From Antedon bifida (taxonomy: Eukaryota > Echinodermata > Crinoidea > Comatulida > Antedonidae): DNA of 64,000 bases. Where the stretch lies: positions 11,605,501 to 11,669,500 of the forward strand of contig OY727093.1 in NCBI GenBank assembly GCA_963402885.1, in the 5' to 3' direction. The notes beneath the pieces are model-generated. The model was not told the DNA's origin, ran no database searches, and worked only from the letters and a program-made list of their open reading frames with translations. The position numbers and the translations under genes were made by a program. Of this stretch, positions 7,726 through 55,623 are shown piece after piece. Each line of letters starts with the position of its first letter. Position 1 is the first letter of the stretch.

Positions 7726-7729
7726 GTCC

Positions 7730-8850: not shown

Positions 8851-8897
8851 TTATCCGTTAGCCCTGTTAACGTCGTGTATGTTGCGATTAAATGAAG
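8851..8897 (-). pseudogene. Orphan tail exon of an M-D-like gene
   Basis: On the minus strand tttattacag is followed by a 47-nt exon coding SFNRNIHDVNRANG and a TAA stop, almost the same as the tail exon of M-D (15365-15319). Here it lies downstream of the M-A stop codon with no cysteine exon of its own. It could be a leftover of a duplicated M-D gene or an alternative last exon for M-A, since the phase is compatible. Confidence 0.5.
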
Positions 8898-9000
8898 CTG
8901 TAATAAAAAAAAAATCAGTGTAACACTTGATATCAGTGCGTTATCATCAAATCAATGACAATGGCCTAAATTGATCATTATCATAATAATTAATTACATA

Positions 9001-9772
9001 CTAACGGGCAGTTCTTGGTTCTTCTTCCGCCTCACGTATTGGCTCAGGTTCTGGTTCTGCGATTAACAAAAAGATGAAATCAACATCAATGAATTTAGAA
9101 CTAGAATATTCCATTATCAACATATCGTAAACGTGGGACAACTTTGTCCCCTGTTAATGGTGACAACGACAACTTACCGACCGGAAAATAAATACATGTA
9201 ATATTTCCAGCGAATGCACACATTCCGTTTTCTTTACATGGATTGGGATGACATGGATCGTCTAAGAATAAAAAAAGATAAAATCAGCATTAATAAAGCA
9301 TAATATCGAAATATCAAAACTGTGTGTCTTTATATCCCTGTTACTGTAGACTAATCGTGGGTTACAATTGTAATTAAAATGCATCATAAAACATCGCATT
9401 ATTCGAGATCTACGACTATAGTAAAGTTTCAATACTGTATGTTATTCCATGGTCACTCTAAAATGGTTTTAAAAGTAAAGTTAGAGTAAATGTGAAATAC
9501 AGTTTCATCAATCCAAATGCAATTGGCAAAACTTAGGTATTTAGTATAATGAATGGCTACAGAGCCACTAATTGTGATACGTCGTCAACTGTGTATAACA
9601 TCCTGAGAATGTCATGGAATTAGTAGACATTTAGGATAGTGCACATATTCAATTTAAAAAAAACTAATAATATTCATTGGACTATAAGTAGGTATCGGTC
9701 TCACTAACCTGCGCTAGACAACTCGACGGTTACATACAAAAACATGAATAGAATAATTGACAATCGAAACAT
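9001..9772 (-). CDS. M-A: secreted half-EGF peptide (3 coding exons)
   Basis: Exons 9772-9709, 9261-9178 and 9056-9001 join at phase-1 GT-AG introns to give 67 aa. Exon 1 encodes a signal peptide (MFRLSIILFMFLYV, ending in SSA). Exon 2 starts DDPCHPNPC and has four cysteines spaced C-x4-C-x5-C-x7-C, like cysteines 1-4 of an EGF domain. C4 is followed by IYF rather than x-C, so the second half of EGF is absent. Exon 3 gives an acidic proline-rich tail (EPEPEPIREAEEEP) ending TAR. The start lies at the first unit of a minisatellite that repeats the acceptor and ATG. A leader exon with donor AAG/gtgagt ends at 10274. Probably a secreted peptide; function unknown. The exon structure is inferred by hand, but a paralogue (M-C) keeps it. 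Confidence 0.72.
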
Positions 9773-10173
9773 CTTGCAGAAAAAGTCTATATTAAGAGGA
9801 GTAAGTGAAGAAAAACAAATATTTTAAAAGTTAAGAATAATTGACAATCAAAACATTTTGCAGAATGAAGTCTATATTAAGAGGAGTAAGTGAAGAAAAA
9901 CAAATATTTTAAAAGTTAAGAATAATTGACAATCGAAACATCTTGAAGAAGAAGTCTATATTAAGAGGAGTAAGTGAAGAAAAAAAAATATTTTAAAAGT
10001 TATGAATAATTGACAATCGAAACATCTTGCTGAAAGAAGTCTATATTAAGAGGAGTAAGTGAAGAAAAACAAATATTTTAAAAGTTAAAAATAATTGACA
10101 ATCGAAACATCTTGAAGAAAGAAGTCTATATTAAGAGGAGTACGTGAAGAAAAGCAAATATTTTAAAAGTTAA
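9751..10173. repeat. 85-bp minisatellite, 5 units, at M-A start
   Basis: Five head-to-tail units of about 85 bp, each beginning gaataattgacaatcg on the plus strand. The first unit overlaps the start of M-A exon 1. On the minus strand each unit carries a pyrimidine-rich tract, an AG and ATGTTTCGATTG, that is, a copy of the exon 1 acceptor and start codon. In the outer units the frame closes after about ten codons (MFRLSIILNF and variants). Unit 2 has slightly changed bases around the ATG. Confidence 0.9.
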
Positions 10174-10273
10174 GTATGATGACAATATGGATCACAAATA
10201 CAACAATATTGAAAACATGGAATAATGTAAATATGTAAACTGTTAATTAGATCTGAATAGAATGTTTACTCAC

Positions 10274-10345
10274 CTTAGTCGGTAATTTGTATCGTTACGC
10301 AAGCTCTCCGTAGACTAAAAGGTGTGGACCATGTAAACTGGTATT
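10274..10345 (-). promoter_or_regulatory. Leader exon/promoter region of M-A
   Basis: Minus strand: the sequence reads from GATAATAAATACC through CTTTTAGTCTACGGAG to CGACTAAG, then a strong donor gtgagt at 10273. Equivalent leader exons end at 12967 (M-B) and 14625 (M-C), and further orphan pieces lie near 10495-10560. The intron it opens contains the minisatellite. The 5' boundary is approximate. Confidence 0.5.
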
Positions 10346-10865
10346 TATTATCTCATCACGCATAAGTTTAAATATATTAATATTAACGATTATAATATTA
10401 GAAAAATTAGCAATAGAAATATACATACATCTGTTTTACAATTAGAATAATAAAACGCTGATTAGGCCCTACATACCAGTTTTTCTCGACTTTTTCTAGA
10501 CTAAAAGGTGTGAACATGTAAACTGGTATTTTATTATCTCATCACGCATAAGTTTACATATATTAACACTAACGCTTATAATAGAAATATTAGCAATACA
10601 AATATACATACGCATACATATACATCTGTTTTACAATTAGAATGATAAAACGCTAAATAAATTTTATACCAGTTCTTTTTTTTCATTTATTTTTTATTTG
10701 ACCTTCTTTATAGAGGGTGACTCTAAACAGCATATATGCTGACAATAAAAAAAGTGGTTTAAAAGATATGATGAGTAATGAATCAAATATACGTCAAATA
10801 ATCATGTTCATAATAGTTATTCCGAAGTAAGTACTTACTTACCTGAACAATCTACCACGAATCCG
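10346..10865. other. Duplicated upstream fragments, no gene
   Basis: Contains a second, partial copy of the M-family leader region (about 10495-10640) without a donor-linked coding exon, then the downstream edge of the CARD block copy 2. Confidence 0.6.
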
Positions 10866-11093
10866 TTAGGATATGAGGGTAATGGTAACACCTGTGCTTT
10901 TTTGCGAAAGTAATCGCAGGAATATTTCTGTACAATCGATAGTTGTCTTTCCACCCTGTATTTCTGTCTGTTCAGCTTTAGAAAAAACACCTTGATGTAC
11001 TAATGAAGGTAATATTAAGGATACATCAAGTTCATTCAACAGAGTGGCTTTGTGCTTATTTATTAATCTTGAAGCAAAATTAGCTTCAGCCAT
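10866..11093 (-). CDS. CARD-domain exon, copy 2
   Basis: Same first 60-odd residues as copy 1 (one change, D to E, in DCTEIFLRLLSQK). The T run at the end of the domain is six long instead of seven, so the reading frame differs after LLSQK and stops after STGVTITLIS, giving 75 aa. Upstream TATA at 11143-11150. Because both copies diverge in frame exactly after helix 4, the coding exon probably ends there, or one copy is frameshifted. Confidence 0.5.
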   Translation of the reverse strand: MAEANFASRLINKHKATLLNELDVSLILPSLVHQGVFSKAEQTEIQGGKTTIDCTEIFLRLLSQKSTGVTITLIS

Positions 11094-11733
11094 ATTGTAC
11101 GTTTAAGATACGAATGCGATACTTTACATACAGGGGGCGCCCTATATATTGTCCAAACCAACCCTCTCAACCAATCTCTTTCAATATGAATGAAAGAATT
11201 ATAAAGTATCACCAGTTCTCGATTTTAGGCGGCATGTACACATTCTTTTTATTCTAGGCATATTAGACGGGGTCTAGTGAAATTAATAAAAGAGTTTTAT
11301 TTGAGACATTTTTATTGTAGACATCCATGTATCTAAATTACATTTAATCAATGTTATAAAGCAAATTATTTGGCCAAAAATTGAAGCCAAAAATTACATC
11401 CGGAAAACTTAAGCCTACATGCTAAATAATAATCTATTTTCTACTTCTTAGCATCGTCTATTGTTATGATCCATCAGCCCTGTTATGGTCCGGCAAACAC
11501 TGTAATAAGAACCGAATCAATGTATTCACTTGGCAGTCCATATGCTACAGATAACTCTTTCTACAAGTTTCAATCTATCATCCACCAATAAACTCCATGC
11601 CACTCAGGTTGCTGAACTTACCTTTAAAAGCTTATTAGACTATTTTATGCAGTCACCACGGGTAAATAGACTTATCTTTGGGACTAAAAAACTGCATCCT
11701 TAATGAGGAATGTCCCCTGAATTGTTGTTGGTG

Positions 11734-12819
11734 TTAGTGTTTTGTGACATGACAACCATAACATGTTCCCTGTCCCTTAATGGAGATGTTCCACTTTATG
11801 ATGGCTAAAATCAATGAAACAAAATTATCGAGTCCGTGATGGTTGCCTAAATCAATATCTCAATCATATGAACAACTTACTTCCAAGTGCCCGACAGATA
11901 TAAGATCTAGTAACTTCGTAATAACAACAATAACACATTTGCCCACATGGGTCTTTCTTACATGGAGCTCCTATGAAAAAAAAGTCGGCACAATTAAGCT
12001 AGAACTATCCAAAAAATATCAACGTTATAAGAGTGCGACAATCTGTGTCTCCTGTCATTGACGAGGGGACTATTGATGGTGGCTATATTATTAGATAGGC
12101 ATATTCATTACCATTATAACGACTTACCATCAGGCATAATCGATTGACATCGAGTTCTATCATTTATGAACAGACATACTACTGAGCCCCCTCTTAATTC
12201 AATACAACCGTCCCCATCACATGGATTGTCGACTAATAAGAATAAAACATAGATAAAAATCATAATAACAGAACTTTTATTAACAAGATAATCAAAGATA
12301 TGATTAATGCTGGTTCATCCTTTATTAGGCCCCTACATGATTAGCGAAAAGCAATGTTTGCTCCCATCAAGGTCGAAAAAGAAAAATTGACGTAGTGCGT
12401 TTACGGCCGGCCGCGGATGGGTTACAAGATATGACTACACGATTAATCATTGTAAAGACTTACTACATTTAGCTTTTCCATCTTCAGACAGACACACGGT
12501 ACCTCCACATGCACTGTAATCACATGGATTGGCTAGAGATACAAAGGTATAATTTAAAATGTGAAATATTACTTGATCCAAATACAAATTAATATTATTA
12601 TTATTATACCAAACCTTCGGTTTATACAGTAGTTGGACCAGGTAGGCCAAATATATAGGTATAATAATATCAGTAAATCATCTTGACTGAAGCTCAGCTT
12701 TTGGTAGATTATGTCTAAATTGCCAGAATACGATTTAAATGTAACTCTCACTAACCTGCGCTAGACAACTCGACGGTTACATACAAAAACATGAATAGAA
12801 TAATTGACAATCGAAACAT
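11734..12819 (-). CDS. M-B: secreted peptide with three cysteine exons
   Basis: Exon 1 (12819-12756) encodes the same signal peptide as M-A. Three cysteine exons follow, all with good GT-AG sites in phase 1: 12532-12464 (NPCDYSAC..., C-x4-C-x4-C-x8-C), 12232-12128 (NPCDGDGC..., C-x4-C-x9-C-x8-C) and 11970-11881 (APCKKDPC..., with an odd CYCC cluster). Together about 109 aa before the last exon. The tail exon is uncertain: 11804-11734 has an acceptor (ttgattttag) in the right phase and stops at TAA, but it is created partly by a block junction at 11790. A leader exon with donor gtgagt ends at 12967. It is the only member seen with several cysteine modules, so modules can be added by exon duplication. 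Confidence 0.6.
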
Positions 12820-13129: not shown

Positions 13130-13866
13130 TTACAATGAGAATATTACAGGTTCTGGTTCTGCGATTAACAAAAAGATGAAATCAACATCAATGAATTTAG
13201 AACTAGAATATTCCATTATCAACATATCGTAAATGTGGGACAACTTTGTCCCCTGTTAATGGTGACAACGACAACTTACCGACCGGAAAATAAATACATG
13301 TAATATTTCCAGCGAATACACACATTCCGTTTTCTTTACATGGATTGGGATGACATGGATCGTCTGCGAATAAAAAAGATAAAATCAGCATTAATAAAGC
13401 ATAATATTGAAATATCAAAACTGTGTGTCTTTATATCCTTGTTACTGTAGACTAATCGTGGGTTACAATTGTAATTAAAATGCATCATAAAACATCGCAT
13501 TATTCGAGATCTACGACTATAGTAAAGTTTCAATACTGTATGTTATTCCATGGTCACTCCAAAATGGTTTTAAAAGAAAAGTAAATGTGAAATACAATTT
13601 CATCAATCCAAATGCAATTGGCAAAACTTAGGTATTTAGTATAATGAATGGCTACAGAGCCACTAATTGTGATACGTCGTCAACTGTGTATAACATCCTG
13701 AGAATGTCATGGAATTAGTAGACATTTAGGATAGTGCACATATTAAATTTAAAAAAGATAATAATATTCATTGGACTATAATTAGGTATCGGTCTCACTA
13801 ACCTGCGCTAGACAACTCGACGGTTACATACAAAAACATGAAGAGAATAATTGACAATCGAAACAT
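13130..13866 (-). CDS. M-C: recent copy of M-A with altered tail
   Basis: Exons 13866-13803, 13363-13280 and 13158-13130, phase 1, 58 aa. Signal peptide and cysteine exon are nearly identical to M-A (one residue change in the cysteine exon, A to V). The tail exon starts like M-A (EPEP), but a deletion of roughly 600 bp joins it to downstream sequence, and the frame now ends after VIFSL at TAA. The flank next to this junction matches 8391-8430, where the full sequence is still present. The start is chosen from M-A. May be functional with a short tail, or decaying. Confidence 0.58.
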
Positions 13867-14524
13867 CTTGCAGAAAAAAGTCTATATTAAGAGGAGTAAG
13901 TGAAGAAAAACAAATATTTTAAAAGTTATGAATAATTGACAATCGAAACATCTTGCAGAAAGAAGTCTATATTATGAGGAGTACGTGAAGAAAAACAAAT
14001 ATTTTAAAAGTTAAGAATAATTGACAATCGAAACATCTTGCTGAAAAAAGTCTATATTAAGAGGAGTAAGTGAAGAAAAACAAATATTTTAAAAGTTAAA
14101 AATAATTGACAATCGAAATATCTTGCAGAAAGAAGTCTATATTATGAGGAGTACGTGAAGAAAAACAAATATTTTAAAAGTTATGAATAATTGACAATCG
14201 AAACATCTTGCTGAAAAAAGTCTATATTAAGAGGAGTAAGTGAAGAAAAACAAATATTTTAAAAGTTAAAAATAATTGACAATCGAAATATCTTGCAGAA
14301 AGAAGTCTATATTATGAGGAGTACGTGAAGAAAAACAAATATTTTAAAAGTTATGAATAATTGACAATCGAAACATCTTGCTGAAAAAAATCTATATTAA
14401 GAGGAGTAAGTGAAGAAAAACAAATATTTTAAAAGTTAAAAATAATTGACAATCGAAATATCTTGCAGAAAGAAGTCTATATTAAGAGGAGTAAGTGAAG
14501 AAAAACAAATATTTTAAAAGTTAA
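13845..14524. repeat. 85-bp minisatellite, 8 units, at M-C start
   Basis: Eight head-to-tail units of 85 bp, related to the M-A array. Units 3-8 alternate between two types (one with cttgctgaaaa and taagagg, the other with aaatatcttgcag), making a 170-bp higher-order dimer repeated three times, the last pair slightly changed. The second type changes the ATG of the repeated start to ATA (minus strand), so only alternate units keep the start codon. Confidence 0.9.
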
Positions 14525-14624
14525 GAACGATGACAATATGGATCACAAATACAACAATATTGAAAACATGGAATAATGTAAATATGTAAACTGTTAATTA
14601 GATCTGAATAGAATGTTTACTCAC

Positions 14625-15318: not shown

Positions 15319-16391
15319 TTATCCGTTAGCCCTGTTAACGTCGTGTATGTTGCGATTAAATGAATCTGTAATAAAAACAAAACCAGTGAAATACTCTGCG
15401 AGTGCATTATCATCAACTCAATGACAATTTTCAATTTAAAAATTACATTACTCACTAATTGTTATGTAATTACACATAGCATTTAGGTTAATAGAATCTT
15501 TTAATTTCTGTTAATGTTTGTAAATTTGGAATTGAAACATATTGTTTGTATTAAAATGAAATTAAATATGAAAATCACTCCTCCCTGGGTATATGAACGA
15601 CGACTTACCAATATACATACTGGTAACAGGTTCACATACGACAATTCCATTCGACATGTAACATACTTCCGACGTCTCACATGTATTGGAATGGGGAGGA
15701 CATGGCTCTGTATATAGTAATACAAAAATATCAATGTATCGTTTGTAACTTGTCTTCTGTCAGCAATGGTGAATATTAATGGGGTAAGAGGCCTTAGTAT
15801 CACATTAATCAGAACGACGACTTGGGACAAGAAATGCATACCAAACTTTGGACGATTAATCTAAGGAAATAAATTCTTACTTATAGCCGTACATTCAACT
15901 TGAACTAACACATGTCATCATTCCAACATGGGTCGTAACAAAGATAAGATTAAATGTGAAATACACTAATTTACATCGATCCAAATACAAATTAACTAAA
16001 TATTTGTATAATTGGTAAGATTTGACAAATTTAATTTTCAAGGAAACCTAAAACTACGTTATCAAACCACTTTTTATTTCTATTTTCGACAGACTATTAT
16101 TGGCCTAGGTAATATATGCGCTCTCCGTTTACAAAAAATCTCTGGATCCGCCTCTGACGCACTGGTGCACCTTCAGTCAGACCATAGAGGAAAAAATAAT
16201 CTGTAATATTTGTAATCTGTAACTTATCTTGAAATGTTTGCAAATTGTCCCTTATTGCCAGAATATAAAAAGTTGACAACTCTTTAATACCTGTAAATCA
16301 TTTGTAAAGAAATTACGATATGCTTACGTGCGCCAGATAATTCGACGTTTACATACAAAAACATGAATATTATAATTGACAATCGAAACAT
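15319..16391 (-). CDS. M-D: secreted half-EGF peptide with Gly-ending tail
   Basis: Exons 16391-16328, 15707-15609 and 15365-15319, all GT-AG and phase 1, give 69 aa. The signal peptide is MFRLSIIIFMFLYV..., ending SGA; the mature chain starts QPCPPHSNTC. Cysteine spacing is C-x6-C-x5-C-x8-C. The tail is DSFNRNIHDVNRANG with Gly as the last residue, which would allow C-terminal amidation if processed. Between exons 1 and 2, at about 15883-15934, is a decayed cysteine exon (PCWNDDMC then a stop) that has lost its acceptor, so the ancestor probably had two modules like M-B. No minisatellite here. A leader exon was not found. Confidence 0.72.
15883..15934 (-). pseudogene. Relic cysteine exon in M-D intron
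   Basis: Minus strand reads PCWNDDMC followed by TAG. It ends close to a gtaag donor, but the expected AG before ACCCATG is gone (ttgttacg). It is best read as a dead cysteine module skipped in M-D. Confidence 0.4.
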
Positions 16392-18945: not shown

Positions 18946-19344
18946 AGATTAATCTTTTATAATAATATTATAGTCATGGTATTTATATTTTTAACCCCAA
19001 AAGTGTGCTTCTAATCTATGTTGTAAATTACTTACGAAGCACATTTTAAAAGATATTCGTTTGTTCTTTGTTATGTCTTAAAGTTTTGCTTAACTAATGG
19101 TATGACATATATAATTACCGTATTTATTCGGATTAACGTTTGCAAAACAATCAGTAATAAATCTATACATGCTGCAGCAGACACTGGGTGTGGGCTACCA
19201 TGGTCTATTAATAGGCCTATTTCATTTCATTTATCTTTTTATTTCGGAATATCATGGTGACATAATATTATATCCATAGCAAAAAAGAGAAAAAAAAAAT
19301 CTTAATCTAACAGCTCATAGAACAAAAACAAAGATATGTAAATA

Positions 19345-22185: not shown

Positions 22186-22249
22186 TTTATGTATAAATCT
22201 AAATTTTTAATTATTGTAGGTGTTGAAATTTTATTGATACCGTAAGCAA

Positions 22250-23458: not shown

Positions 23459-24378
23459 ATGGTTCGAATGTTGATTGTTTTGTACGTATTTCTGTTTTTA
23501 AACAACGTAATGTTAGAAGCTTCTGGGGGTTAGTAATTATGACATTTTATTGCATTTTGTAGGCCTACGTCAAATGTCATTTTCTTTTTTAGAGGGTAAC
23601 CCTCATTTATAACATATACAAATACACATCCACTAAATATCACCTTTCCTCATATGTAAGTGTTGATACTCCAAACAACGTTCAATAATTTGTCAAGCTA
23701 TGCCGTTTCATTTTTTTTGTAGTTTTAATTGTTTAATTTCCTTTATATAGATTCAAAACCATGCGACTCAAATCCATGTGAATTCACTTGTAATGAGCTT
23801 AAACATGGAGACTAGGGTTACACATGCACCGAAACTACAACACCTGAACCTCCCTCACGTACGATTTGTTCGAATTGATTAAACTTTAATTAGACCTACA
23901 TCACATAAAACAAGTCGCACTGTAAATAATTTTAAATATATAAAATAAATAATCACGACGCATTTGGTCATCGTCGCTTGTGATTGGTCAACTCACTTGC
24001 GTTGCGTCTATGTGTCACTGCGTTGCGTACAAGAGATATTTTGAGAAATTAACAACTAAATGCAATTCATGGTTGGCAGTTATATTAACATAGCAATTAT
24101 AACCACCAGTATTCTCCAGATATGCACACAGTAACCAGTATCATGATTACCACCATACCTTTTACTAAGTATAGTACTTACTTTCTTTGTTAGCACGATA
24201 GCGCCTATAATTTTCAAGTTATAATTCTGAAAATGTAGGTGTACAAAATCGCTTTATTAATAACTTCACAAATAAAAAAAAAAGAAGAAAATGTTGTATT
24301 CTTTTTTCATTTATTATTTCAATGATTCTTCTAGAGTTTGGTATGTTCATCAGTAGCGGTGATACTAAACGTGGTTAG
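23459..24378 (+). CDS. P1: family member with in-frame stop
   Basis: Exon 1 (23459-23528) encodes a hydrophobic signal peptide (MVRMLIVLYVFLFL). Exon 2 starts at 23751 in phase 1 (DSKPCDSNPCEFTCNELKH), but TAG at 23813-23815 ends it after three cysteines, giving 44 aa. Beyond the stop the frame stays open and family-like (GYTC...) to a possible phase-1 donor at 23858. Exon 3 (24335-24378) has a good acceptor (ttcttctag) and encodes FGMFISSGDTKRG and a stop, the family tail. AATAAA follows at 24514-24519. The most economical reading is a recent nonsense mutation; a shortened three-cysteine product or a stop polymorphism is possible. Confidence 0.55.
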
Positions 24379-25521: not shown

Positions 25522-26244
25522 ATGGCTCGAATTTGGATATTCATAGTTAGTAGTTTTGTGTGCAACCAACGTAAGGTTTGCAGTTTCTACGCGCCACGGT
25601 TTGTACAATATTATCCACTTCTTGTTCTCAATTCACACTTAAAATTTCCACCAAACCGAGTATTTTAGTTTGTATTCCGTATTGTAATCAGTATTCCAAA
25701 TGCCTTTACATTTTTAGAATTACATTTTTTTCATGGAAGATTTAGGATGAAAAGGAGAAGGAGGTTAATTATTCACACAACTATCTATACAATTAATTTT
25801 ATATTATTTCGATCAATAATGTATTCAATTTCTGAATAGTAAATGTTTATGTTTTAGTAAGTAAGTATATTATATATTATCCAATGGCGCTTTACTTGCC
25901 ATTGCGTCATCACATTATCGTTATTCTTTTTGTAGGCCTAATTTATGTTTATATTACAGAAAGAAGTCCGAATCTATGTTCATCAAATCCATGTGAATCA
26001 ACTGCAACTTGTGAGCGTACGATTTGATTTTTGTTTTTATAAATTGTAATCGACAGTTATTTTCATTGTTTGGTAGATGGTTAATATTTCTCTCATTGCC
26101 ACTGACCTAAAAACATTATCATTATTAATTATTCTAACAGAAAGTGGGACTGCTGAAACTGTATATTACAATCGTAGTCGAATACAAAATATATTTTCTT
26201 TTACAGGTGGCATGTTCCTCACTAAAGGCGATCGTATTGGATAA
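25522..26244 (+). CDS. P2: short three-cysteine member
   Basis: Exons 25522-25570 (MARIWIFIVSSFVCNQ), 25960-26010 and 26207-26244, phase 1, 45 aa. Exon 2 gives RSPNLCSSNPCESTAT. Using the donor gtgagc at 26011, the split codon T/GT at the junction makes the third cysteine, and exon 3 continues GMFLTKGDRIG and a stop. If this donor were not used, the frame would stop at TGA after ERTI. The joint therefore restores both a cysteine and the family tail, which supports it. The acceptor before exon 1 is not obvious (ttttttacacaatgg), so the leader junction is uncertain. Confidence 0.58.
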
Positions 26245-29302: not shown

Positions 29303-32300
29303 ATGGTTCGAGTTTGTATTGCTTTAGTAGTTCTGTTCGTAACGTTCACCGCCGCAACACGATACGGTTTGTAAATCATTTTGTACATTAATTTTACAAG
29401 TGTATTTTTCAAAAAAATAATACAATACCAACTGTATAAAGTAAGTATTGTTTTTTCATCCTCCAATATATAAATAATTCAATTTTCAACATCTTGTTAT
29501 CAATCCTCAATCAAATTACCTGAACAGCCTATACCTACTTTTCCAGAATTTAGAATGTGATTAACACTTACTTGTTTAATTCTAAAATGAGGGCTAGATA
29601 TATATATAGGCCTATTTGTTTCAATATATTTCTTTAGGATCTTTATTTAACTGTTTTTTTTAAAAACCAACTCTGACGTAAATATACCAAAATTCGCTAT
29701 TTATATAGGAATTAGACCACCATATATAAAAACCATACAAGAGTCCCATGATAGTCTAGGACCTGGGTCAGATTTGTATGCATTTAATTTAGGAGAGAAT
29801 ATCTCAACTGTTATAGGATAATTTGACCCCCACGAACAACATGGAATGTGTGCCAAATTCGCTATCCGGGGCGAACATGCCCAAAATCGGGGTCAAAGGT
29901 TAAAAATGTATGGTTATTATATCTTGACAACCACGTGTCATACAGATTTACTTTTGGTGTCAAATTGTTCAGAATATACATATTTATATTCGATCTAACA
30001 CAACTTTAAGCGAAAAAATGACCGGAAATGCTTTTACTGACCTTTGACCCAAAAATGACCAAAAAACACATTTTCGGGTTAAATTATTCTTTAAAATGCC
30101 AATGGACAAACTGTATGGTATCAAATGAAAGCATACACAATATGCTACCCATTGCTACCCAACTTGTATTGAAAATGTTTAATTATGAAGCTAATTTTAT
30201 GGAAAATGTGCATATTTTGATTATTTTTATACAAAAAATGAATATTTGGTAGCGTAATTGTTATATTATATTAAATAATTTAAGTGTTTGGAAAAACTAT
30301 TTGGTATCAAATGAAAGTCCATAAAATATTCTATCCATTGCTATCCAACTTGTATTAAAAATCTTTAATTATGATGCTAATTTTGTTAAAAATGTACATA
30401 TTTTATTATTTTTTTAAAAAAATGAGAATACTAGATAGTGTAAATTTATTTTGGTTTATTTATGATATTAAATAATTCAAATGCTTGGAAGACATATTTG
30501 GTATCAAAGGAAAGCACATAAAATATGCTATCCATAGCTACCCAACTTGTATTGAAAATCTTTAATTATGTGATGCTATTTTTGGAAAATGTGCATATTT
30601 TAATAACTTTAGACAAAAATGAGTATAAATTAGTGTAAATTTATTTTGGTTTAAATAATTCTAGCGTTATATTTGGTATAAAAAATAAAACCCCATACAA
30701 TATACTATCCATTGGTACACAACTTGTATTGAAAATCTTTAATTACGACTTTTTTGAAAATATTCTTTTTTTTTTTTGACAAAAATGAGTATACAGTAAT
30801 AAGTAGTGTAAATTTATTTTGGTTTATTTATAATATTATATAACTCTATATTTTCCAAAAAAAATGATTCATTTTCAATACATATTGGATAATCTGTATG
30901 TACTAGGTAGCATGTATACCAAATATTTATTTAAAACACTAGAATTATATGTATAACTAGAGGGTACTCCGAGAGTACAAACCTCCGCCTACTATAAAAT
31001 TCCCCTACATATAATGTCCCCGGAAAATATATATATATTTTTTAAATATTTTTTTGTATTAGTTCTAAATGTAAATAGGCTAACTGCACACTACAAAGTT
31101 GTGGATGAGATCGTTGGTTCAAGTCCCGCTGAGGTTTTTTTTTTTTATTATTTTTTTATTTCTTTTTTTTTTGTGGACCTTGATCTTTGACCCTGACCCT
31201 TCAAAATTTAACCACAATTATATGATGAGTCATTGATCATTGTGGCTAAGTTTGGTGAGAATCGGATAAAAACTGTGGTCTCTAGGCAGTAAAATAGTTT
31301 TTTGTTAGTTGTGACCTTGACCTATGACCTTTTCCCCTCAAATTCTAACTCGTCCGAGCTTTTGAGGCATAGATCATTGTGTCCAAATTTGGTGAGAATC
31401 GGATAAAAACTGTGGCCTCCAGGCTGTTCACAGACACACACACAAACACACAGCACACAAACATACAGGGGTGAAAATATAACCTCCTTGGCGGAGGTAA
31501 TAAACCAAAATATATTTACACTAACTGTATAACACATTTTCTAAAAAACCTTTATAATTTTAACTTATACAGTACTCATTTTTGTCAAAAATTAATAAAA
31601 TATGCACATTTTTTTTAAAAACTATCATAATTAGATTTTCAATACAAGTTGGGTAGCAATGGATAGACTATTTTATGGGCTTTTATTTAATACCAATATA
31701 GATCTCCTAAACACTTTAATAATTTAATCATTATAAATAAACCAAAATAAATTTACACTATTTAATATACTCATTTTTGTCAAAAATTTATAAAATATGC
31801 AAATTTTTCAAAAAAATCTACATCATTATTCATAATTACAGATTTTCAATGCAATTTCAAAATGGCACCCAAATCTCCGTAACCTGTTGGTCTATCAAAA
31901 TGATATGGTATCAAAATGCTTGGTAAACTTACCAAGATCTTCCAAACACTTGAATTATTTAATATAAATAAACCAAAATAAATTTACACTTTTTAATATA
32001 CTCATTTTTGCACAAAAAAAATAAAATATGCAAATTTTAAACAAAATTAGCATTATAATTACAGATTTTTAATACAAGTTGGATAGCAATGGATAGAATA
32101 TTTTATGGGCTTTCATTTGATACCAAATAGTTTTTTCAAACACTTACATTATTTAATATTATATAAATAAATATAAAAATTACGCTACCAAATATTCATT
32201 TTTTGTATAAAAGTAATCAAAATATGCACATTTTCCATACAATTAGCTTCATAATTAAAATTTTCAATACAAGTTGGGTAGCAATGGGTAGCATATTGTG

Positions 32301-33636
32301 TATGCTTTCATTTGATACCATACAGTGTATTCATTGGCATTTTAAAGAATAATTTAACCCGAAAATGTGCTTTTTGTCATTTTTGGGTCAAAGGTCAGTA
32401 AAGCATTTCCGGTAATTTTTTCGCTAAAAAAAGTTGTGTTAGACCAAATATAAATATGTATATTCTGCACGATTTGACACCAAAAGAACATTTGAATTAT
32501 TTAATATCATAAATAAACCAAAATAAATTTACACTATTTAATATACTCATTTAAAAAAAAAATAATAATAAAATATGTACATTTTTAACAAAATTAGCAT
32601 TATAATTACAGATTTTTAATACATGTTGGGTAGCAATGGATAGAATATTTTATGGACTTTCATTTGATACCAAATAGTTTTTCCAAACACTTAAATTATT
32701 TAATATTATATAAATAAACTTAACAATTACGCTACCAAATATTCATATTTTGTATAAAAGTAATCAAAATATGCACATTTTCCATACAATTAGCTTCATA
32801 ATTAAAAATTTTCAATACAAGTTGGGTAGCAATGGGTAGCATATTGTGTATGCTTTCATTTGATACCATACAGTTTGTCCATTGGCATTTTAAAAAATAA
32901 TTTAACCCGAAAATGTGTTTTTTGGTCATTTTTGGGTCAAAGGTCAGTAAAAGCATTTCCGGTCATTTTTTCGCTAAAAGTTGTGTTAAATTGAATATAA
33001 ATATGTATATTCTGAACAATTTGACACCAAAAGCAAATCTGTACGACAAGTGGTTGTCGAGATATAAGAACCACACATTGTTAACCTTTGACCCCGATTT
33101 TGGGCATGTTCGCCCCGGATAGCGAATTTGGCACACATTCCATGTTGTTCGTGGGGGTCAAATTATCCTATAACAGTTGAGATATTCTCTCCTAAATTAA
33201 ATGCATACAAATCTGACCCAGGTCCTAGACTTAATAATGATTACGTCATTGGGGGAAACATATCTATATGCAAACCCAGTTGGTAGTAACATTTTCTTTT
33301 TCAATTATGATTTTGATCTAGTTGAAGGAAGAGATCCATGTCAATCTGACCCATGTGATCCAATGTGTATCCAAACAAATGACGATTACCCATGTCAGGC
33401 CGGTAGGTTATAGGGTATTGTTTGTTTTTTAAACATTCGATTTAGTTATTTCTGTGTTCTGATTTCAAGAATTACATAGTTCTGGTTAATTGAAAATTAC
33501 TAATTACTTTATTCTACTACTCGAATATCCGATACTTTCTTTTCTAGAAACTATTGACCAAGAACTAGCGGTAGCTGCTGCTATGTTCATCAGTGCAGGA
33601 GATTTTGAAGAAGAGTTATTGGGAAGGCTAGCATGA
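29303..33636 (+). CDS. P3: secreted half-EGF peptide, foldback in intron
   Basis: Exons 29303-29366, 33322-33402 and 33548-33636, all GT-AG, phase 1, 77 aa. Signal peptide MVRVCIALVVLFVTF..., then VEGRDPCQSDPCDPMC..., with spacing C-x4-C-x3-C-x8-C, then a tail ETIDQELAVAAAMFISAGDF ending in GRLA. The tail is longer than in relatives because a deletion relative to P4 removed the usual stop and the frame reads into old 3' UTR sequence. AATAAA lies at 33717-33722. Intron 1 is about 4 kb because a foldback element sits in it; the paralogous P4 intron lacks it. The acceptor before exon 1 (t-run then AAG) fits the leader exon ending 28694. Confidence 0.72.
29753..33231. mobile_element. Foldback element FB1 in P3 intron
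   Basis: Long inverted repeat. The left end AGTCTAGGACCTGGGTC is mirrored by GACCCAGGTCCTAGACT at the right end. The left arm is about 1 kb and the right arm about 1.6 kb, because a segment is duplicated inside the latter (around 31900-32470 and 32500-32960). The arms consist of diverged subrepeats (ttggtatcaaatgaaagc and its complement). No transposase frame. No clear target-site duplication. P4, a paralogue, lacks the insertion at about 36745. Confidence 0.85.
30955..31503. repeat. Nested repeat at the centre of FB1
   Basis: Unlike the arms, the centre has a unit bounded by gagagtacaaacctccgcc on the left and acctccttggcggaggtaat on the right, with paired ggtgagaatcggataaaaac segments, a box B-like GGTTCAAGTCC near 31110, and a CA-rich run at 31433-31470. 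It looks like a separate repeat inserted in, or captured by, the foldback. Confidence 0.6.
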
Positions 33637-36128: not shown

Positions 36129-37133
36129 ATGGCTCGACGTGTCTTTATTGTTACTGTAGTATTGTTGTTCGTAACCGGAAACGGTTTGAATAATCTTCAG
36201 CATTACATGCTGTTTATATTTTATTTCTTATTTATTTATATTTTAACTTTCAAGCAAGATACAAACCAAATTAGGCTACACAATTAAGAAAGGACTTAAA
36301 ACTAAATGCACAATTAAAAAAACAAAACGCACAATCAAAGAGATCAAATAATTTAACTACAAATTCACAAAAGTACATCGCGGCACGCGACTCTACAGCT
36401 CTCTATTGCTCACCGATTTCTACTTTATATTATTGTGCAATACTTGCTTGGCAGTTACGGAACACCGTAATTTCTATAATAATTGTTCTCACAAGTTGCG
36501 TTATTTATAGTACCAGTAATTGAATTTTAAATTTTTTGTTGACGTTTTTACCAACATTTCTCCGCACATGTATGTACGTGCAAATTGCGTTAGTGCGTTT
36601 TTTAATTAAATTGTAGGAAAATTAACTTCAATCACAAAGATCAAAGTGACGAATGAATACTAGTTTCTATAGGCCTATTAGACCACCGAGCTTGCGCTGA
36701 TGGCATTTTCTATATATAAAAACCATACAAGAGTCCAATGAGTACATGATGATTACGTCATTGGGGGAAACATATCTATATGCAAACTCAGTTGCTAGTA
36801 ACATTTTCTTATTTCAATTATGATTTTGATCTAGAAGAAGGAAGTGATCCATGTCAACCTGACCAAAATGGCGATCACCTATGTCAGCAGACGGCCGGTA
36901 GGTTTTATTGTTTGTTTTTTAAACATTCGATCTAGTTATTTCCATTGTTGGATTATTCTTTGTATATTGTGTTCTGAGTTCAAGAATTATATAGTTCTGG
37001 TTAATTGAAAATTACTTTATTCTACTACTCGAATATCCGATAGTTTCTTTTCTAAAAAACTATTGACCAAGAACAAGAACTACTAACAGAACCTGCTATG
37101 TTCATGAGTGCGGGAGATACGCGAATAGGCTAA
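36129..37133 (+). CDS. P4: degenerate family member (lost acceptor)
   Basis: Exon 1 (36129-36183, MARRVFIVTVVLLFVTGN) and exon 2 (36835-36897, EEGSDPCQPDQNGDHLCQQT) are joined in phase 1. Exon 2 is 18 nt shorter than in P3 and keeps only two cysteines. The P3 acceptor ttttctag is ttttctaa here. The next AG downstream (gaccaag at 37071) is in frame, so exon 3 can be 37072-37133: it gives EQELLTEPAMFMSAGDTRIG and a stop, with the family tail intact; 59 aa in all. AATAAA at 37256-37261. Either a gene with a shifted acceptor or an early pseudogene. Tandem duplicate of P3. Confidence 0.5.
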
Positions 37134-39080: not shown

Positions 39081-39084
39081 TAAC

Positions 39085-40735: not shown

Positions 40736-41090
40736 AAAAAGGTAGCGGTCCATGTGGAAACAAATGTTTTACCAATTGTGTAGAAAACCAAAATGGCGGT
40801 TAAGAATGCAAGCCTTCTCGCCGTACGGTTTGATGTTTTTTTACATTTTTATGCGATATGTTCTGATATGTTTTTTACATGTAATTTGGCCATTATTAGT
40901 ATTATTTTGAATATCATACTATTGTACGGTAGTTACTTTCATTGTTTGCTTGCTTTATTTATTTATATCTTTCCTAGGTATTTTTAAATTAAAAATTATT
41001 GTATTAACTGCTAAGAATATTGTATATTTCTTTTTAGTGAAATTATCTCATGTGTTCATCAGTTGGGGAGATTCCAACGGAAGGGCGTAG
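40736..41090 (+). pseudogene. P5: family member without visible signal exon
   Basis: Cysteine exon 40736-40798 (EKGSGPCGNKCFTNCVENQN, C-x3-C-x3-C) uses a phase-1 donor gttaag, and exon 3 (41038-41090) encodes VKLSHVFISWGDSNGRA and a stop. Reading on past that donor meets TAA at 40801 just before a would-be fourth cysteine (ECKPS), so the current donor may have replaced an older one further right. No signal-peptide exon is seen between the leader exon (39249) and here; FB3 occupies that interval. AATAAA at 41203-41208. Probably dead, unless an unseen exon supplies the start. Confidence 0.5.
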
Positions 41091-43004: not shown

Positions 43005-43320
43005 GAGAAGGCGATACATGTAACCCTTCATGTGAACCAAATAAAACTTGTGTGTACACGGTGACAGGTGATGGTAATGGTGATTATCAATGTATTATGA
43101 CAGTAAATACCAGTACGTGTTTGTTAAAGATTAACATACTATTCCATTGTTTGTTTGAGTTATTGCTTTTCTGAGCAAAGATATAATGATCCTATTAAGA
43201 ATTTTTATTTTTAGATTACGTATATTGTATTTTCTAGAGACTGTTGTTGCACAAGCACATGAACGTGTCTTACCTGTGCTTTTCATCAGTAGAGGAGATC
43301 ATACGGGCAAACATTTCTAG
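43005..43320 (+). CDS. P6: cysteine and RGD-tail exons (signal exon not found)
   Basis: Exon 43005-43112 encodes GEGDTCNPSCEPNKTC and a long last loop (C-x3-C-x5-C-x13-C) ending in GNGDYQC. Exon 43238-43320 encodes KTVVAQAHERVLPVLFISRG then DHTGKHF and a stop. Both joints are GT-AG, phase 1. The tail contains RGD. Poly(A) signals at 43415-43424. No signal exon is visible between the leader exon (41787) and 43005; a LINE fragment lies there. Exons are intact otherwise, so either exon 1 is lost or it has diverged past recognition. Confidence 0.5.
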
Positions 43321-43984
43321 CGGTTTTGCAAGCACCAATAATGCCAATAATTAAAGACTAGTCAGCATGCTGAGAAGAAATGCATTTGTGAAATGTATTG
43401 AAATGTAACATGGCAATAAATAAATGCAACAAACATGATATTGATTGTCAATCAACTGATTGTTTTTCCTATGTTGTTATTGTCATAAAATATGAAAGTA
43501 CAATAATGTGTCTAATTCTACATAGTGGTATGAACGTAATTATTTTACTCATTCTATATTTTTTTTAAACTTTATTTAATCTGCATTTCTATATTTCTAA
43601 ATTATAGGATTACCAATTGAATCACAATGCATTTCCATAACTTAGTTAAAATTATAGCCTATGAATAATACATTCTTGACTAAGGATTCTAAATGATTTA
43701 AATTGGAACCGTTTCCTTTTTGACATATATTGAGCAAACAACAACCATACATTTAAAACAGATCGAACTATTAACGACATATAAAATATACTAATGCCCA
43801 TGTCTCAAGGTCAAAGTGTAATTTCAATAAACTCACTCGGTTTGAAATTCGTTGGGACACTTTTTTAAATCACACATAATAGTACGCTATCTCGAATATG
43901 ATTTATACAAATCGTTTTGAAATTGCCAGAATTAAAATAACAAACAGAATAATTAAAATGTATTATAAAAAGCTGTTATAATAA

Positions 43985-44171
43985 CCATTTAATTGAGTCA
44001 ATAAAAATAAATAAATATATAATGTAAATTTACCTTGAAAATGTTTATATTTATCACCAAATTAAAAATTCTGGAATTATAATCGTTTTATTAAAATGAC
44101 AATATTATTATTAGCTTTGAACATTTTAACTATAACAGACCGGTCGGATATTGGAACCGCAATTCTATCAG
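43985..44171 (+). promoter_or_regulatory. 5' module and leader exon of P7
   Basis: catttaattgagtcaataaa, TATA-like ataaatatataatg at about 44011-44024, tgacaatattattattagc, and a leader exon ending TTCTATCAG at 44171 before gtaggcc. Confidence 0.6.
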
Positions 44172-44381: not shown

Positions 44382-45332
44382 ATGGCTCGGCGAGTTTGTA
44401 TTGCTTTAGTATTGTTGTTCGTAATGTTTACCTTTGCAAATAGTGACGGTTTGTAAAATTCTTTATTATTCTTTATTTGTATACTATAACATATTATGGT
44501 ACTGTATATAGTAAGGTCAAGTAGGCATAAATGTTATTTATCAAGCAACATTGTGCGAGGAAAAACAAATATATTAAATGTCCCAATCCACTGAATTCCC
44601 TGCAATTAGTCTCTGCTTACTAACTATACTTTTCCGGTATTCAGAATGTCTTCAACATTACTTGCTTTTTGTTTTTTATTATATTAATTGTTCTCACACT
44701 GCCGCGTTATCTTACATTGCATTTTATGGTTGTGTTGCTTTTTTGATGATATTGATTAAACTCTGAAGAATTGTACCGAAATTAGCAAGTTGTCCTAAAT
44801 CCCACACCCTTTAGATTACCTTGCTGGTTCATACTTCAAGACGACCGAGCTTGTGATGATGGCTAACTAATCTAACTAAGGTAAAAAAAAAGACTAACAT
44901 GAGAGTCCCACGCGAGGACCATTACGTCCTCGCATTAGTATATAAATGTTGTTACGCCTAAAACAAAACAAAAACAATGCGTATTAGCAAATCATTCGTT
45001 AATTTCAATTATGTTTTGGTTTAGAAGGAAGACAAAATCCATGTGATGACGAACCATGTAAATCCATTTCAAATTCAATTTGTGATGAGAAAGGAAAAGG
45101 CGATTACAAATGTCTGATTGTCGGTATGGTTTGATAGTTGATTTTTAAAATTCGATTTAGATAGTTATTTGCATTATTTATTGTTTGTTTAAAAGCTCAA
45201 GTATAATGCGATCTAGCATTTTAAATTCATTCATCAGAGTAGGACGAACTTTTTTTTTCAGCGTCTGAAAAACCACGACCCAATCCTATGCAAGCCGTAT
45301 TTCTCAGTAGGGGAGATAGTCTTCGTGGCTAA
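44382..45332 (+). CDS. P7: best-preserved family member, RGDS tail
   Basis: Exons 44382-44448, 45025-45123 and 45262-45332, all GT-AG and phase 1, 78 aa. Signal peptide MARRVCIALVLLFVMF..., ending NS; mature part DEGRQNPCDDEPCKSIS... with C-x4-C-x7-C-x9-C, closing GKGDYKC as in EGF (aromatic two before C4). Tail ASEKPRPNPMQAVFLSRGD then SLRG and a stop: it contains RGDS, the integrin-binding tetrapeptide, and ends in Gly, the residue used for C-terminal amidation. Acceptor ttttttttag directly before the ATG links to the leader exon at 44171. AATAAA at 45477-45482. All parts are intact, so this is the reference member of the plus-strand group. Confidence 0.82.
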
Positions 45333-50494: not shown

Positions 50495-51767
50495 CATAAA
50501 AGAACAACTAGATTTGAACTCGTCACTACAGACGAGTTAGGTTATCCGCAGCGCAGACCCCACGTGCACGTCATACGTTAGAATATTGCACACAGAAAAA
50601 CGATTATGCCATTGAAAAAATGTTAGTGCGCTCTCTATTTTGTGTCACGTCTAAGCATATACGGTATACACCATATACTGTATACGTACTACATACAGTG
50701 CAGAATAGGTGAAAATAAGTGACCCAAGTTATTGACGCTTTTGAACATGATGACGTCATCACAATTTTAAAAGTGATAAATCATGCGAAAGGTAATTGAT
50801 TGACCTAGACAATATAAAAATGGAATACGGATAAGTGGAGAAATAAATGTGATGAGCTATGACGAAAGAGACAAAAATTCTATATTTTATATTCGAGTGG
50901 CCATACGATGACGTCACAATGTCCGGTTAGCCATATTTATTCATGATTCGATATCTACAACTTATTAACTTCCAGAATCTGTAATTTTAAAAAAGTTCAC
51001 CACGTAGTTTAGAATCTATGACTTTTTAAAAAAGGCATAATTTTAACGAATTTTTTAACTTTTTCATCAAAAACGCGTGCAAATTGTCCAATTCGACGTG
51101 CTCGTATGACGTAATTTTAAGTCGAAATTGTTTAAAAGTTAGTAAAATTACTAGAAAAAGCTGGAAAAACAAAAATCACGCAAAAAAAGATGTTTTTAGC
51201 GCTACGTGCGCGCGCAGGAATTTTTGACATGCTCAAAATGACATGAAACGCGTAGAAAGTTGATTAGAAATTGATTTTTCGCATTTTTAATTTTTAAACG
51301 CGCGTGCGCGCGTAATTTTGTGTAATACATACCATTTTTAATCCATAGAAAGTTGGCCCTTGATATAACCTAAATTTTCACTAAGTGTCAATACAAAATG
51401 ACTTTTGGTTTATAATCTGACCAATCATTGAAATTCATCATATGTTGGCCAGAATTAGAGATATGCGTGCAACAAAATTCGTGGAAAGAAAGAAGAAAAT
51501 AGAAAAAAAAGAGAGAAAAAAAAAGAGAACCTGACAATAACAAGGGGTTATCCGCCAAATGCGGATAACCAATTAATAATAAGATAACCATTGTTTGCAG
51601 ACAATTTTAATTGAACAGATCAGATACAGTATACTAGTGAAAGCTACGAAAGCTATGAGTACAGGCCCTAAATATTATCCAATTACAATTCGACATTCTA
51701 AGTTGAAATTTCGATATCATTTTATTTTAACTTTTTATTCGAACTTTTATAGGCCATCACCATAAAT
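50495..51767. other. Repeat-rich spacer, no gene seen
   Basis: GGTTATCCGC at about 50542 and GCGGATAACC at about 51560 are inverted, with a box B-like GAGTTCAAATC on the minus strand near 50520. This may be one more repeat, but the edges are unclear. Purine-rich tract at 51484-51530. Confidence 0.4.
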
Positions 51768-54700
51768 AGTCCAGGAGTATTAGACAAAAAAAGGGCCAAA
51801 GGTAGAAATAAATATGCTAAAGCTGAATTTTTCAGGATAGGTCCCCAATGTTGTCTGGAACAACATACTAAAAGTCCCCGGGTTTCCCCGTTGTGCTTCA
51901 ACCTGATTGGGCCATTTTTCAAAATGGCGGCCATCTTAACAATTATTTACCATATTTTGACAACCAGTAGGTGTAAGTAAACAATTTTGGTGTCAAAATA
52001 CTCAGAAGACCAATATTTATATTCACTGTAATGGAGAAGTTTTTAAAAAAATGACCGGAAATGCCTGTTTTGACCTTTGACCATCAATTTGGATTTTCTC
52101 AATATCTTATCAACGACTGGCCGTAGAGAGTTCAAAATTGTCCCAAATTATTCAGAATGCCCAACTTTCTATTCACTCTAATGAAAGAAAAACACTAAAT
52201 TCCTTTAGAAACCTTCTATTCTGACCTTTGAACTATTGACCTAAGCATATTTTAATTTTATAGACATCTTGGTGATCGATAGGAGTGCATAAGCGAAATT
52301 GGTGTCAAAATACTCAGAAGACCCATATTTATATTCACTATAATGGAAAAGTTTTTAAAAAAATGACCGGAAATGCATGTTTTGAACTTTGACCCTAAAT
52401 TTGGATTATCTCAATATCTCATCAACGACTGGCCGTAGAGACTTCAAAGTTGTCCCAAATTATTCAGAATGCCCAACTTTCTATTTACTTTAATGAAAGA
52501 AAAATACTAAAAACCTTTAGAAACCTTCTATTTTGACCTTTGAACTATTGACGTAGGCATATTTATTTTTATAGACATCTTGGTGATCGATAGGATACGA
52601 AATTGGTTTAAAAATTTATAACTTTGACCCTAAATTTGGGTTATCTCAATACCGCATCAACTGCTGGCCGTAGAGACTTCAAAATTGTCCTAAATTAAGA
52701 AGAGTGCCCAACTCTCTATTCACTGTAGTTAAAGAAAAATACTAAAAGCCTTTAGAAACCACCTATTTTGCCATTTGAACTATTGATCTGGCCAATACAG
52801 TATTTTATATCATAAACATATAGAAATCTTGGTGATCGATAGGAATACATAAGCGAATTTGTTGTCAAAATATTCCTAAACACCCATGTTTTTTTACCTT
52901 TGACTTTAATCACTACATTATAATTTAATAATTTAAGTCCCAAATAGCATGATGGACATATCACACCATTCATCATGCCATGAGATGTCAAATTTATCCG
53001 AAACAGCCCAGAAAAAAATGTCCGATGGACGAATAATACTATTCATCAATATAGATATGAGGCCATAATTTCAGGTATCAAAGGGTCACAATGTGTCATT
53101 TGACAAATCACCTAAATAATAAAATACAATATGAAACTCTTACAAATCTATCAAGATGAATTATAAAGAAATTGTCACTGTAAAGTTGTTATGGTCTTCA
53201 ACAGATTTTCATGCCCTTATTTTATTAACCATCATAATTATAGTCCTGAAGTATTTTCGATTTTTAGAGAATTTTGATTGGAAAAAAACAGAGAAAAATG
53301 TTCACATCTTAAAGATAAATGCAATAATTCTTTTAAAATTAAATTGCATCATATCAGATAAGAATCGGAGGTATGACTAGAGCCTAAAATGAGACTTAGA
53401 CTGAGACCTTGATAAATGGTTGGGTGGGTGACTATGTACAGTGTGCAGTTTTAGACAATTTAAAAAATGTTATAAGATGAATTATGTACTCCAGACCTAT
53501 ATACACAAAGAAATGTAATAGTGCAGCTCAATTGAAAAAAAAAACCAATTTTACCAATAAGTGTGTGTCAAATCAACCAGTAGTGGTCTCTGCTATATAT
53601 TAAATGACACTGCCGAAGAGGAAACATTTCAGAATTGGTGTAGCTCCAAAGTTTAAACATGGACATTAGCCATATAGAGAAGGCGTGGCATTTTTTGGAG
53701 GACTAATTTCTAACCTTAAATAATAAATAAATAATAAAATTTGTTTGGTTACTAATGAATAAAAGAAGTGAAAACAGGCTAAAGCCCAAACAGACAGTAA
53801 AATGTATCATATATATATAGTTTAAAATTGGGGCTTGGTTTGTCTGTTTAGCATCTGAGCAATTTGGAATGAATTTTACCTCTCATGGCAATGGCCATAC
53901 TGATGAATTGTTAGATTCTGTCTATCTTTATGTCAACTTAAATTTAACTTTTTACATCTAAGCCCTCCCTCTGGAGAGCACGGGCTATTGTCGGTTTATA
54001 CAGTTAAGCTAGGCACGAAATAGACTAATTCTCATTAAAATGTAATTATTAGGGTCAAATGTCAAAACACTTTCAATCGCATTCAGTACATTATTTCTAT
54101 AAGAGTAAACAGAAACATGGGTGTTTTGGAGTATTTTGACACCAAATTCCCTTATGTATTCCTATCGATCACCAAGATTTCTATACAATTTTGGTATAAA
54201 ATATGACCAGATCAATGGTTCAAAGGTCAAAATAGAAGGTTTCTAAAGGAATTTGGTATTTTTCTTTCATTAAAGTGAATAGAAAGTTGGGCATTCTGAA
54301 TAATTTGGGACAACTTTGAAGTCCCTACGGCCAGTCGTTGATGAGATATTGAGATAATCCAAATTTATGGTCAAAGGTCAAAACAGGCATTTCCGACCAT
54401 TTTTTGTTAAACTTTTCCATTACAGTGAATATAAATGTGGGTCTTCTGAGTATTTTGACACCAATTTCGCTTGTGTACTCCTATCGATCACCAAGATGTC
54501 TATAAAATTAAAATATGTCTAGGTCAATAGTTCAAAGGTCAAAATAGAAGGTTTCTAAAGGAATTTGGTATTTTTCTTTCATTAAAGTGAATAGAAAGTT
54601 GGGCATTCTGAATAATTTGGGACAACTTTGACGTCTCTACGGCCAGTCGTTGATGAGATATTGAGATAATCCAAATTTAGGGTCAAAGGTCAAAACAGGC

Positions 54701-54984
54701 ATTTCTGACCATTTTTTGTTAAACTTTTCCATTACAGTGAATATAAATATGGGTCTTCTGAGTATTTTGACACCAAGATTGTTTACTTACACCTACTGGT
54801 TGTCAACATATGGTAAATAATTTTAAGATGGCCGCCATTTTGAAAAATGGCCCAATCGGGTAGAAGCACAACGGGGAAACCCGGGGACTTTTAGTATGTT
54901 GTTTCAGACAACATTAGGGACCTATCCTGAAAAATTCAGCTTTAGCATATTTATTTCTACCTCAAAGTCTAATACTCCTGGACT
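51768..54984. mobile_element. Foldback element FB2
   Basis: The left end AGTCCAGGAGTATTAGAC is mirrored by the right end TCTAATACTCCTGGACT. Arms of about 1 kb each contain two to three diverged subrepeats (tgaccggaaatgc, tgacctttga, ggccgtagagacttcaaa). The termini (AGTCYAGGA) and the tgaccggaaatgc subrepeat are shared with FB1, so the two are one family. The centre (about 52900-54040) has no transposase-like frame. It ends about 70 bp from the 3' end of X1. Confidence 0.85.
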
Positions 54985-55053
54985 AAAAGTGTTTAATGAA
55001 CGGAAGGCGCTAAGTAATTACGGTGACAGTTAAACACAATCTATTTCGCTTTC

Positions 55054-55623
55054 CTATCCTGATATATAAAATCTGGTGTCCTCCGAATCTGAAATAAAAG
55101 GAAGAAATATTGAATCCTAGCCCTCACAAACATTATGTTAAGTTAGGCCTATTGATTAAAACAATATTGAGTTGAATACAACAAATTCTTACAACATTCA
55201 ATTAAGTCAGGATTCCCATTCACATATTGACAGGCATATTGTTTACCACCACACAGTTCTTCACAATCTAGACCGTCTGTAACTCTTTCCAATCCTAAAA
55301 GAAAACACTAATTAATTAACTCATCTGTATCGCAAGTTTTGAATTGTGCGTATTGATTACCTTTAAAATCAATAATATATACACTTGAACTTTTAAATAA
55401 AATCTCGCCAGAGGGATCCATGTTAGTAATAGGTATGGTATTGATAATACAAATGTTATTTAAATATTTATTTATTGTAATAATGACGATAATTAACCGT
55501 ATCATGATGACGCAATAATCAGTGACGATGTAGATTATTATTACGAAATGTGAAAACCACCGTGAAAAACTTACCTTCGGTCATTGCTACAATTAGTATT
55601 GCAAACAAAACAGCTCGAAACAT
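55054..55623 (-). CDS. X1: distant family member, secreted cysteine peptide
   Basis: Exons 55623-55575 (MFRAVLFAILIVAMTE), 55294-55193 and 55088-55054, phase 1, 61 aa. Exon 2 carries GLDCEELCGGKQYAC and has four cysteines, C-x3-C-x6-C-x11-C, ending ...LIEC. The donor is gtaaga; exon 3 follows a strong acceptor (ccttttatttcag) and encodes YSEDTRFYISG and a stop, recalling the F-x-S-x-G tail of the P genes. If the donor is ignored, exon 2 reads on to a TAG at 55149 and gains two more cysteines (six in all); both forms are possible. TATA at 55718-55729. Not recognised as a known family; could be antimicrobial or signalling. Confidence 0.65.

Follow-up and report, generated by a model that had tools for sequence, protein, structure and literature searches.

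A cluster of small split genes predicted to encode secreted peptides with half-EGF cysteine cores in the crinoid Antedon bifida

A 64,000-nt stretch of the Antedon bifida genome (contig C1, positions 11605501-11669500; hereafter the window) carries a tandemly duplicated, crowded family of tiny split genes. Twelve loci, M-A to M-D, P1-P7 and X1, were modelled within window positions 8851-55623. Each gene would consist of a signal-peptide exon spliced to one or more phase 1-1 cassettes bearing a half-EGF cysteine pattern and then to a short tail exon, and the resulting peptide would be small and secreted, with two predicted disulphides and a C-terminus that is probably amidated. We infer splicing, secretion, disulphide pairing, amidation and function from the DNA sequence; the gene plan, taken by itself, is close to certain. 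These genes are best read as encoding lineage-restricted, fast-changing secreted two-disulphide peptides that would have been built from EGF exons and would serve as effectors or signals. For the gene plan combined with a diversifying extracellular effector role, defensive or toxin-like, we estimate a probability of about 0.47.

We scanned the window for exons located between AG and GT, in phase 1 at both ends and containing four cysteines at defined spacings. Ten exons from eight loci fitted this description, three of them in M-B. Among 200 simulated windows, generated with an order-2 Markov model, the mean was 0.015 cysteine exons and the maximum was one, so chance is excluded as their origin. 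The cluster of small split genes proposed in the initial annotation is, therefore, real. GT, AG and phase 1 were found at all modelled signal-core, core-core and core-tail joints, including the two that had been named as decisive (44448/45025 and 9709/9261), albeit the 5' ends of the signal exons are placed with less certainty than the other exon ends. The loop lengths reported earlier also hold among the four-cysteine cores, with 3 to 9 residues between the second and third cysteines and 7 to 13 between the third and fourth. Split genes for small peptides with cysteines arranged like EGF cysteines 1-4 are thus supported, and their secretion is predicted: a hydrophobic N-terminus was recognised by eye in 10 of the 12 models, weakly in P2.

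The plan had been described as uniform. This is true of the phase 1 joints but not of the loci as wholes, since only seven of the 12 (M-A, M-B, M-C, M-D, P3, P7 and X1) combine a signal exon with an open frame and a core of four or more cysteines. The cores of P2 and P5 contain three cysteines each and that of P4 two, the P1 core is interrupted by an in-frame TAG, and no signal exon was found for P5 or P6. The P2 and P4 models require less usual splice sites. Further departures are the three consecutive cysteine exons of M-B, an additional cysteine-free exon of 51 nt in M-A, and the M-C tail, which is shortened at a duplication break.

As a protein query, the M-B model, then carrying a tail later rejected, retrieved one protein out of three candidates, the Antedon mediterranea 'uncharacterized protein isoform X1' (P0037; NCBI, UniRef), which is 57% identical across 73% of the query length (E 2.9e-29). 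By our own reading, P0037 comprises about six half-EGF modules and ends in NRANG. Its exons can be placed one after another on the cluster, where a signal, a module and a tail reach 100% identity. The 24 matches that were scored in the A. bifida assembly (315.6 Mb, 27 contigs; best candidates only) all lie within C1 11554-11622 kb. The best-scoring genome stretch is 80% identical (residues 37-80), so P0037 probably stems from another species or copy than the window. Its signal peptide is almost the same as that of the cluster, its half-EGF modules follow the M-B order and its tail has the NRANG ending, but it has about six modules instead of the one to three of the window genes. Signal, module order and tail recur together in M-B (with an altered tail) and in genes left of the window, whereas M-A, M-C and M-D share the signal, and M-A and M-D the tail ending. 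The resemblance of the P3 core to P0037 is weak (E 0.03). This relative also bears on the statement that gene finders miss such genes: a scan for long reading frames does miss the family, but a close M-type relative already has an NCBI name, and the family is, therefore, not wholly invisible to them.

A terminal glycine, the usual substrate for amidation, is a feature absent from the initial annotation. Seven of the 12 models end in Gly (P1, P2, P4, P7, M-A, M-D and X1, counting P1 despite its broken core and P4 through an alternative acceptor), and three more (P3, P5 and P6) carry Gly-Lys or Gly-Arg one or two residues short of the end; M-B and M-C have neither. As background, 2.8% of the window's 2051 stop-to-stop frames have the terminal Gly and 2.4% Gly-Lys/Arg near the end. 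The tails differ among the M, P and X groups yet mostly keep this feature, and P0037 is also Gly-terminal. These endings suggest that the predicted peptides are amidated.

The usual core has four cysteines, without EGF cysteines 5 and 6, and so falls short of a six-cysteine EGF domain. In canonical EGF, the first half fits C-x4-C-x5-C-x7-C, and the exons are in phase 1-1. That spacing is found in M-A and M-C, the remaining cores vary, and a further likeness to the first half of EGF is G-D-Y-x-C before the fourth cysteine in P6 and P7. None of the seven peptide models compared with Pfam (all except P1, P2, P4, P5 and M-C) passed a cut-off; the M-A model had the best EGF match (PF00008; 13.3 bits, E 0.1, cut-off 21.5), the other six showed no EGF match, and P7 and P3 each had one unrelated sub-threshold match. 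The M-A, M-B and M-D models used there had tails that were later changed or omitted. A search of solved structures with the M-A model, again before its tail was changed, gave weak matches (best E 0.57), some of them to EGF domains. We, thus, consider the cores EGF-like, with a probable origin from EGF, but outside the EGF family itself.

Signal exons had been proposed to be more conserved than cysteine exons, and comparisons between paralogs agree. For P3 and P4, 20 of 144 coding-exon positions are mismatched against 15 of 365 in introns and untranslated regions (UTR) (p=0.0003), a count in which the P3 tail is partly aligned to sequence past the P4 stop. For older paralogs, 100-base flanks served as reference. 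Seven core pairs pooled differ at 84/592 positions against 131/1262 in flanks (p=0.02); five exceed their own flanks, and two pairs are significant when taken singly. Three signal pairs differ at 8/192 (flanks 34/556) and two tail pairs at 6/81 (flanks 28/372), and cores exceed signal exons with p=8e-5. Since these pairs have a common history and the p values are uncorrected, the latter serve as guides only. The data support faster change in the cores and suggest positive selection on them.

The preferred reading of secreted, diversifying effectors proposes that copies arise through segmental and tandem duplication and that some die, with the cores collectively outpacing neighbouring introns and the signal exon being retained. 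A fast core, a conserved signal, tandem birth and death, and predicted amidation fit use as effectors outside the cell. A narrower form would make the cluster a crinoid-specific conotoxin-like arsenal, in which a half-EGF cassette exon can be swapped between fixed signal and amidated tail exons, and three subfamilies with distinct tails have cores diversified by positive selection; as a package, this is rather unlikely.

Several observations weigh against a diversifying effector family. When the P3-P4 comparison is limited to gap-free, unambiguous codons, 9 of 93 positions differ, eight of the nine in amino-acid-changing codons, and p is only 0.04. Two of the seven core pairs (the M-D core and M-B exon 1) fall below their own flanks, M-A and M-C show no difference between coding and non-coding sequence, and in the M-A/M-D pair neither tail (p=0.10) nor signal (p=0.36) differs significantly from its flank. 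Rapid core evolution, as first claimed, is supported for the pooled older cores but not for recent block copies, where the coding excess (9/558 against 17/1857 in non-coding sequence) is not significant (p=0.16). Several of the 12 loci look broken or degenerate, and some of the divergence may reflect a loss of constraint because several copies look dead. Since the models are paralogs, neither the glycine counts nor the divergence counts are independent. Summed net charges of eight mature models range from -11 to +1, unlike classical cationic antimicrobial peptides. Segment by segment, many distant cores and tails and some flanks in P and M pairs are barely above shuffled sequence. A single origin of the M, P and X groups is suggested by the shared plan and by a weak sequence likeness between them, such as that of the P3 core to P0037, and is accordingly putative. 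Finally, none of the 281 candidates in a protein search with the P-group alignment proved to be a homolog at a limit of E 1, although this is weak evidence of absence because the three protein searches showed only one named animal protein.

The main rival holds that these are precursors of amidated two-disulphide neuropeptides or hormones acting on internal receptors, which we consider rather unlikely. A signal-like N-terminus combined with a C-terminal Gly would suit such precursors, and P0037 contains two RR sites and one KK. In a 2022 survey, the predicted crinoid neuropeptide precursors AmedPCNP7 and AnjapPCNP6 have four cysteines and predicted amidation and, per its authors, are not homologs of each other (PMC9793003). 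They are likewise crinoid, with a predicted C-terminal amide, and are compared here by description only. However, none of the 12 models has a dibasic site between signal and core or one bounding a peptide, and basic pairs in mature parts occur only in P1 (KR beside the C-terminus) and M-B (KK within a core). Neuropeptides would also be unlikely to form so large a tandem family, with rapidly changing cores and numerous degenerate members. Gamete or mating signals that diversify between species are improbable: faster cores beside conserved signal exons would fit them, but nothing gonad-specific was seen. About as improbable are functionless, decaying EGF-exon relics whose rapid evolution is loss of constraint, for while P1, P2, P4, P5 and M-C are broken or degenerate and recent copies lack clear constraint on their cores, ten four-cysteine cores are still open between splice sites, signals are more conserved than cores, terminal Gly is kept in most tails, an NCBI-named relative exists, and decay alone is insufficient because P3-P4 coding exons exceed the intron rate.

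Among known systems, conotoxins and similar toxins combine a conserved signal with a variable cysteine-rich mature part. The fixed signal and variable core of the cluster work like this arrangement, in a comparison that carries no evidence here of a venom role. The SpTransformer immune genes of the purple sea urchin are described as a clustered family with tandem repeats and segmental duplications that is thought to be diversifying (PMC10887614). They resemble the present cluster, by description only, as clustered echinoderm genes with duplications. Their gene structure is of another kind and is not known to include a half-EGF cassette. No description of the present family was found in the literature searched, a partial sample. 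Clusters of variable cysteine-rich secreted peptides are a known kind of system, of which the crinoid half-EGF cassette with its predicted amidated tail seems to represent a new version.

The M genes are encoded on the minus strand. M-A has its signal exon at 9709..9772 (MFRLSIILFMFLYVTVELSSA, phase 1), its cysteine exon at 9178..9261, the extra exon at 9006..9056 (phase 1-1, an acidic EPEPEP linker) and its tail exon at 8851..8897 (SFNRNIHDVNRANG and stop, with 8851 as the end of the stop codon). An upstream non-coding exon and candidate promoter block lies at 10274..10400, where the low end is a hand-counted donor and the high end approximate; further copies stand at M-B and M-C, three in all, and there is also a remnant. 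In M-B, the signal exon (12756..12819) is identical to that of M-A and is followed by cysteine exons at 12464..12532 (73% identical to an A. mediterranea module), 12128..12232 (scan and model) and 11881..11970 (six cysteines). Its probable tail exon (11483..11499, low end hand-counted) reads MFAGP and resembles the NRANG tail with an early end. M-C comprises a modelled signal exon (13803..13866), a cysteine exon (13280..13363, scan and model) and the truncated tail (13130..13158, EPEPVIFSL). In M-D, a modelled signal exon (16328..16391) precedes a C-x6-C-x5-C-x8-C core (15609..15707, for which the scan used the nearer donor 15621) and a tail exon (15319..15365) with the same SFNRNIHDVNRANG ending as M-A. 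Our first tail choices for M-A (a stop after the 51-nt exon), M-D (EIKRFY) and M-B (LFTRGDCIK) were dropped given the NRANG tails and the Antedon protein. We also rejected the whole M group as one multi-domain protein; consecutive modules occur in M-B and in the multi-module genes to the left of the window.

Two other features lie among the M genes. An 85-bp tandem repeat occupies 9750-10186 (about five copies) and 13844-14527 (about eight); each unit carries the acceptor together with the beginning of the M signal exon, and therefore the gene start itself lies within the minisatellite. A CARD-like reading frame (10844-11110, minus strand, hand-counted coordinates; Pfam CARD E 7.7e-5, 23.1 bits against a cut-off of 23.9) sits in a 1-kb segment that is present twice with 93% identity, the copy falling within 7343-8366, and that also holds M-type tail sequence.

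The P genes lie on the plus strand. P1 has a modelled signal exon (23459..23528), the interrupted cysteine exon (23751..23858) and a tail (24335..24378, FISSGDTKRG). The weak signal exon of P2 is at 25522..25570, its short core at 25960..26016 and its tail at 26207..26244 (FLTKGDRIG). In P3, the modelled signal exon (29303..29366) is separated from the cysteine exon (33322..33402) by an intron with a 3.5-kb inverted-repeat insertion, and the tail (33548..33636) reads FISAGD...GRLA. The inserted element (29753-33231) has inverted ends of about 740 bp that are 95% alike and internal repeats of about 197 bp. P4 is modelled at 36129..36183 (signal), 36835..36897 (core) and 37090..37133 (tail, FMSAGDTRIG), P5 at 40736..40798 (core) and 41038..41090 (tail, FISWGDSNGRA), and P6 at 43005..43112 (cysteine exon) and 43238..43320 (tail, FISRGDHTGKHF). 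P7 combines a modelled signal exon (44382..44448), a C-x4-C-x7-C-x9-C core (45025..45123) and a tail (45262..45332, FLSRGDSLRG), and is preceded by a candidate promoter and 5'UTR-exon block at 43960..44170 (ends approximate), with copies at 27140, 28464, 35448, 39060 and 41575, six in all. F-[ILM]-[ST]-x-G-D is found in all seven P tails, and a looser motif also matches a few unrelated frames. We discarded an integrin-binding (RGD) role for these tails, in which the residue preceding GD is S, K, A, A, W, R and R from P1 to P7. Searched against its own genome, the P7 model recovered only its own three exons plus one match at E 6.2; this search missed P3 and P4 of the same window and is, therefore, no proof that P genes occur nowhere else.

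X1, on the minus strand, has a modelled signal exon (55575..55623), a cysteine exon found by both scan and model (55193..55294) and a tail (55054..55088, SEDTRFYISG). For a thirteenth gene, X2, only the tail exon is inside the window (62752..62780, minus strand, GVRFYL; hand-counted coordinates), its signal and core exons lying beyond the edge at C1 11670.6 and 11669.8 kb. X3, translated by hand, has the C-terminal Gly, whereas X2 does not.

The limits of the cluster were mapped after adding 100 kb of contig on either side. It spans about 122 kb (C1 ~11554 to 11676 kb), with multi-module genes in its left part and two further X-type genes (X2 and X3) in its right part. The M block occurs in three copies along it, in one of which the middle M-B cysteine exon failed the scan, and P tails are confined to the window within the whole extent scanned. 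The DNA looks animal-like: G+C content varies between 27 and 38% among 2-kb segments, there are retrotransposon-like reading frames and a 5S-like repeat, and AGGCCTA occurs 27 times in the window, against about 1.8 expected from base composition alone. A reverse transcriptase from the window had 36 matches in the protein search. A retrotransposon-bearing 5-kb segment is present in two copies (1-5006 and 17836-22855; 98.4% identity). The 5S rRNA-like sequence (26638-26745; 47.4 bits) is perhaps a 5S-derived short interspersed element. A fold-back arrangement of 312-bp units at 51767-54985 is similar to the element in the P3 intron. Farther along the contig, at C1 11733786-11734078 (L017, plus strand), two adjoining phase 1-1 exons with a different four-cysteine pattern (KACSSDAHCTPPARC... 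and VECSSDNNCIAPERC...), followed by a short repeat array, perhaps belong to an unrelated module family.

Crinoids are sister to all other living echinoderms (PMC11336682). In A. bifida, the conserved start and variable two-disulphide core of these peptides would make them directly testable candidate effectors or signals. The family suggests a route from an EGF exon to a minimal scaffold, and it offers an example of genes overlooked by long-reading-frame scans.

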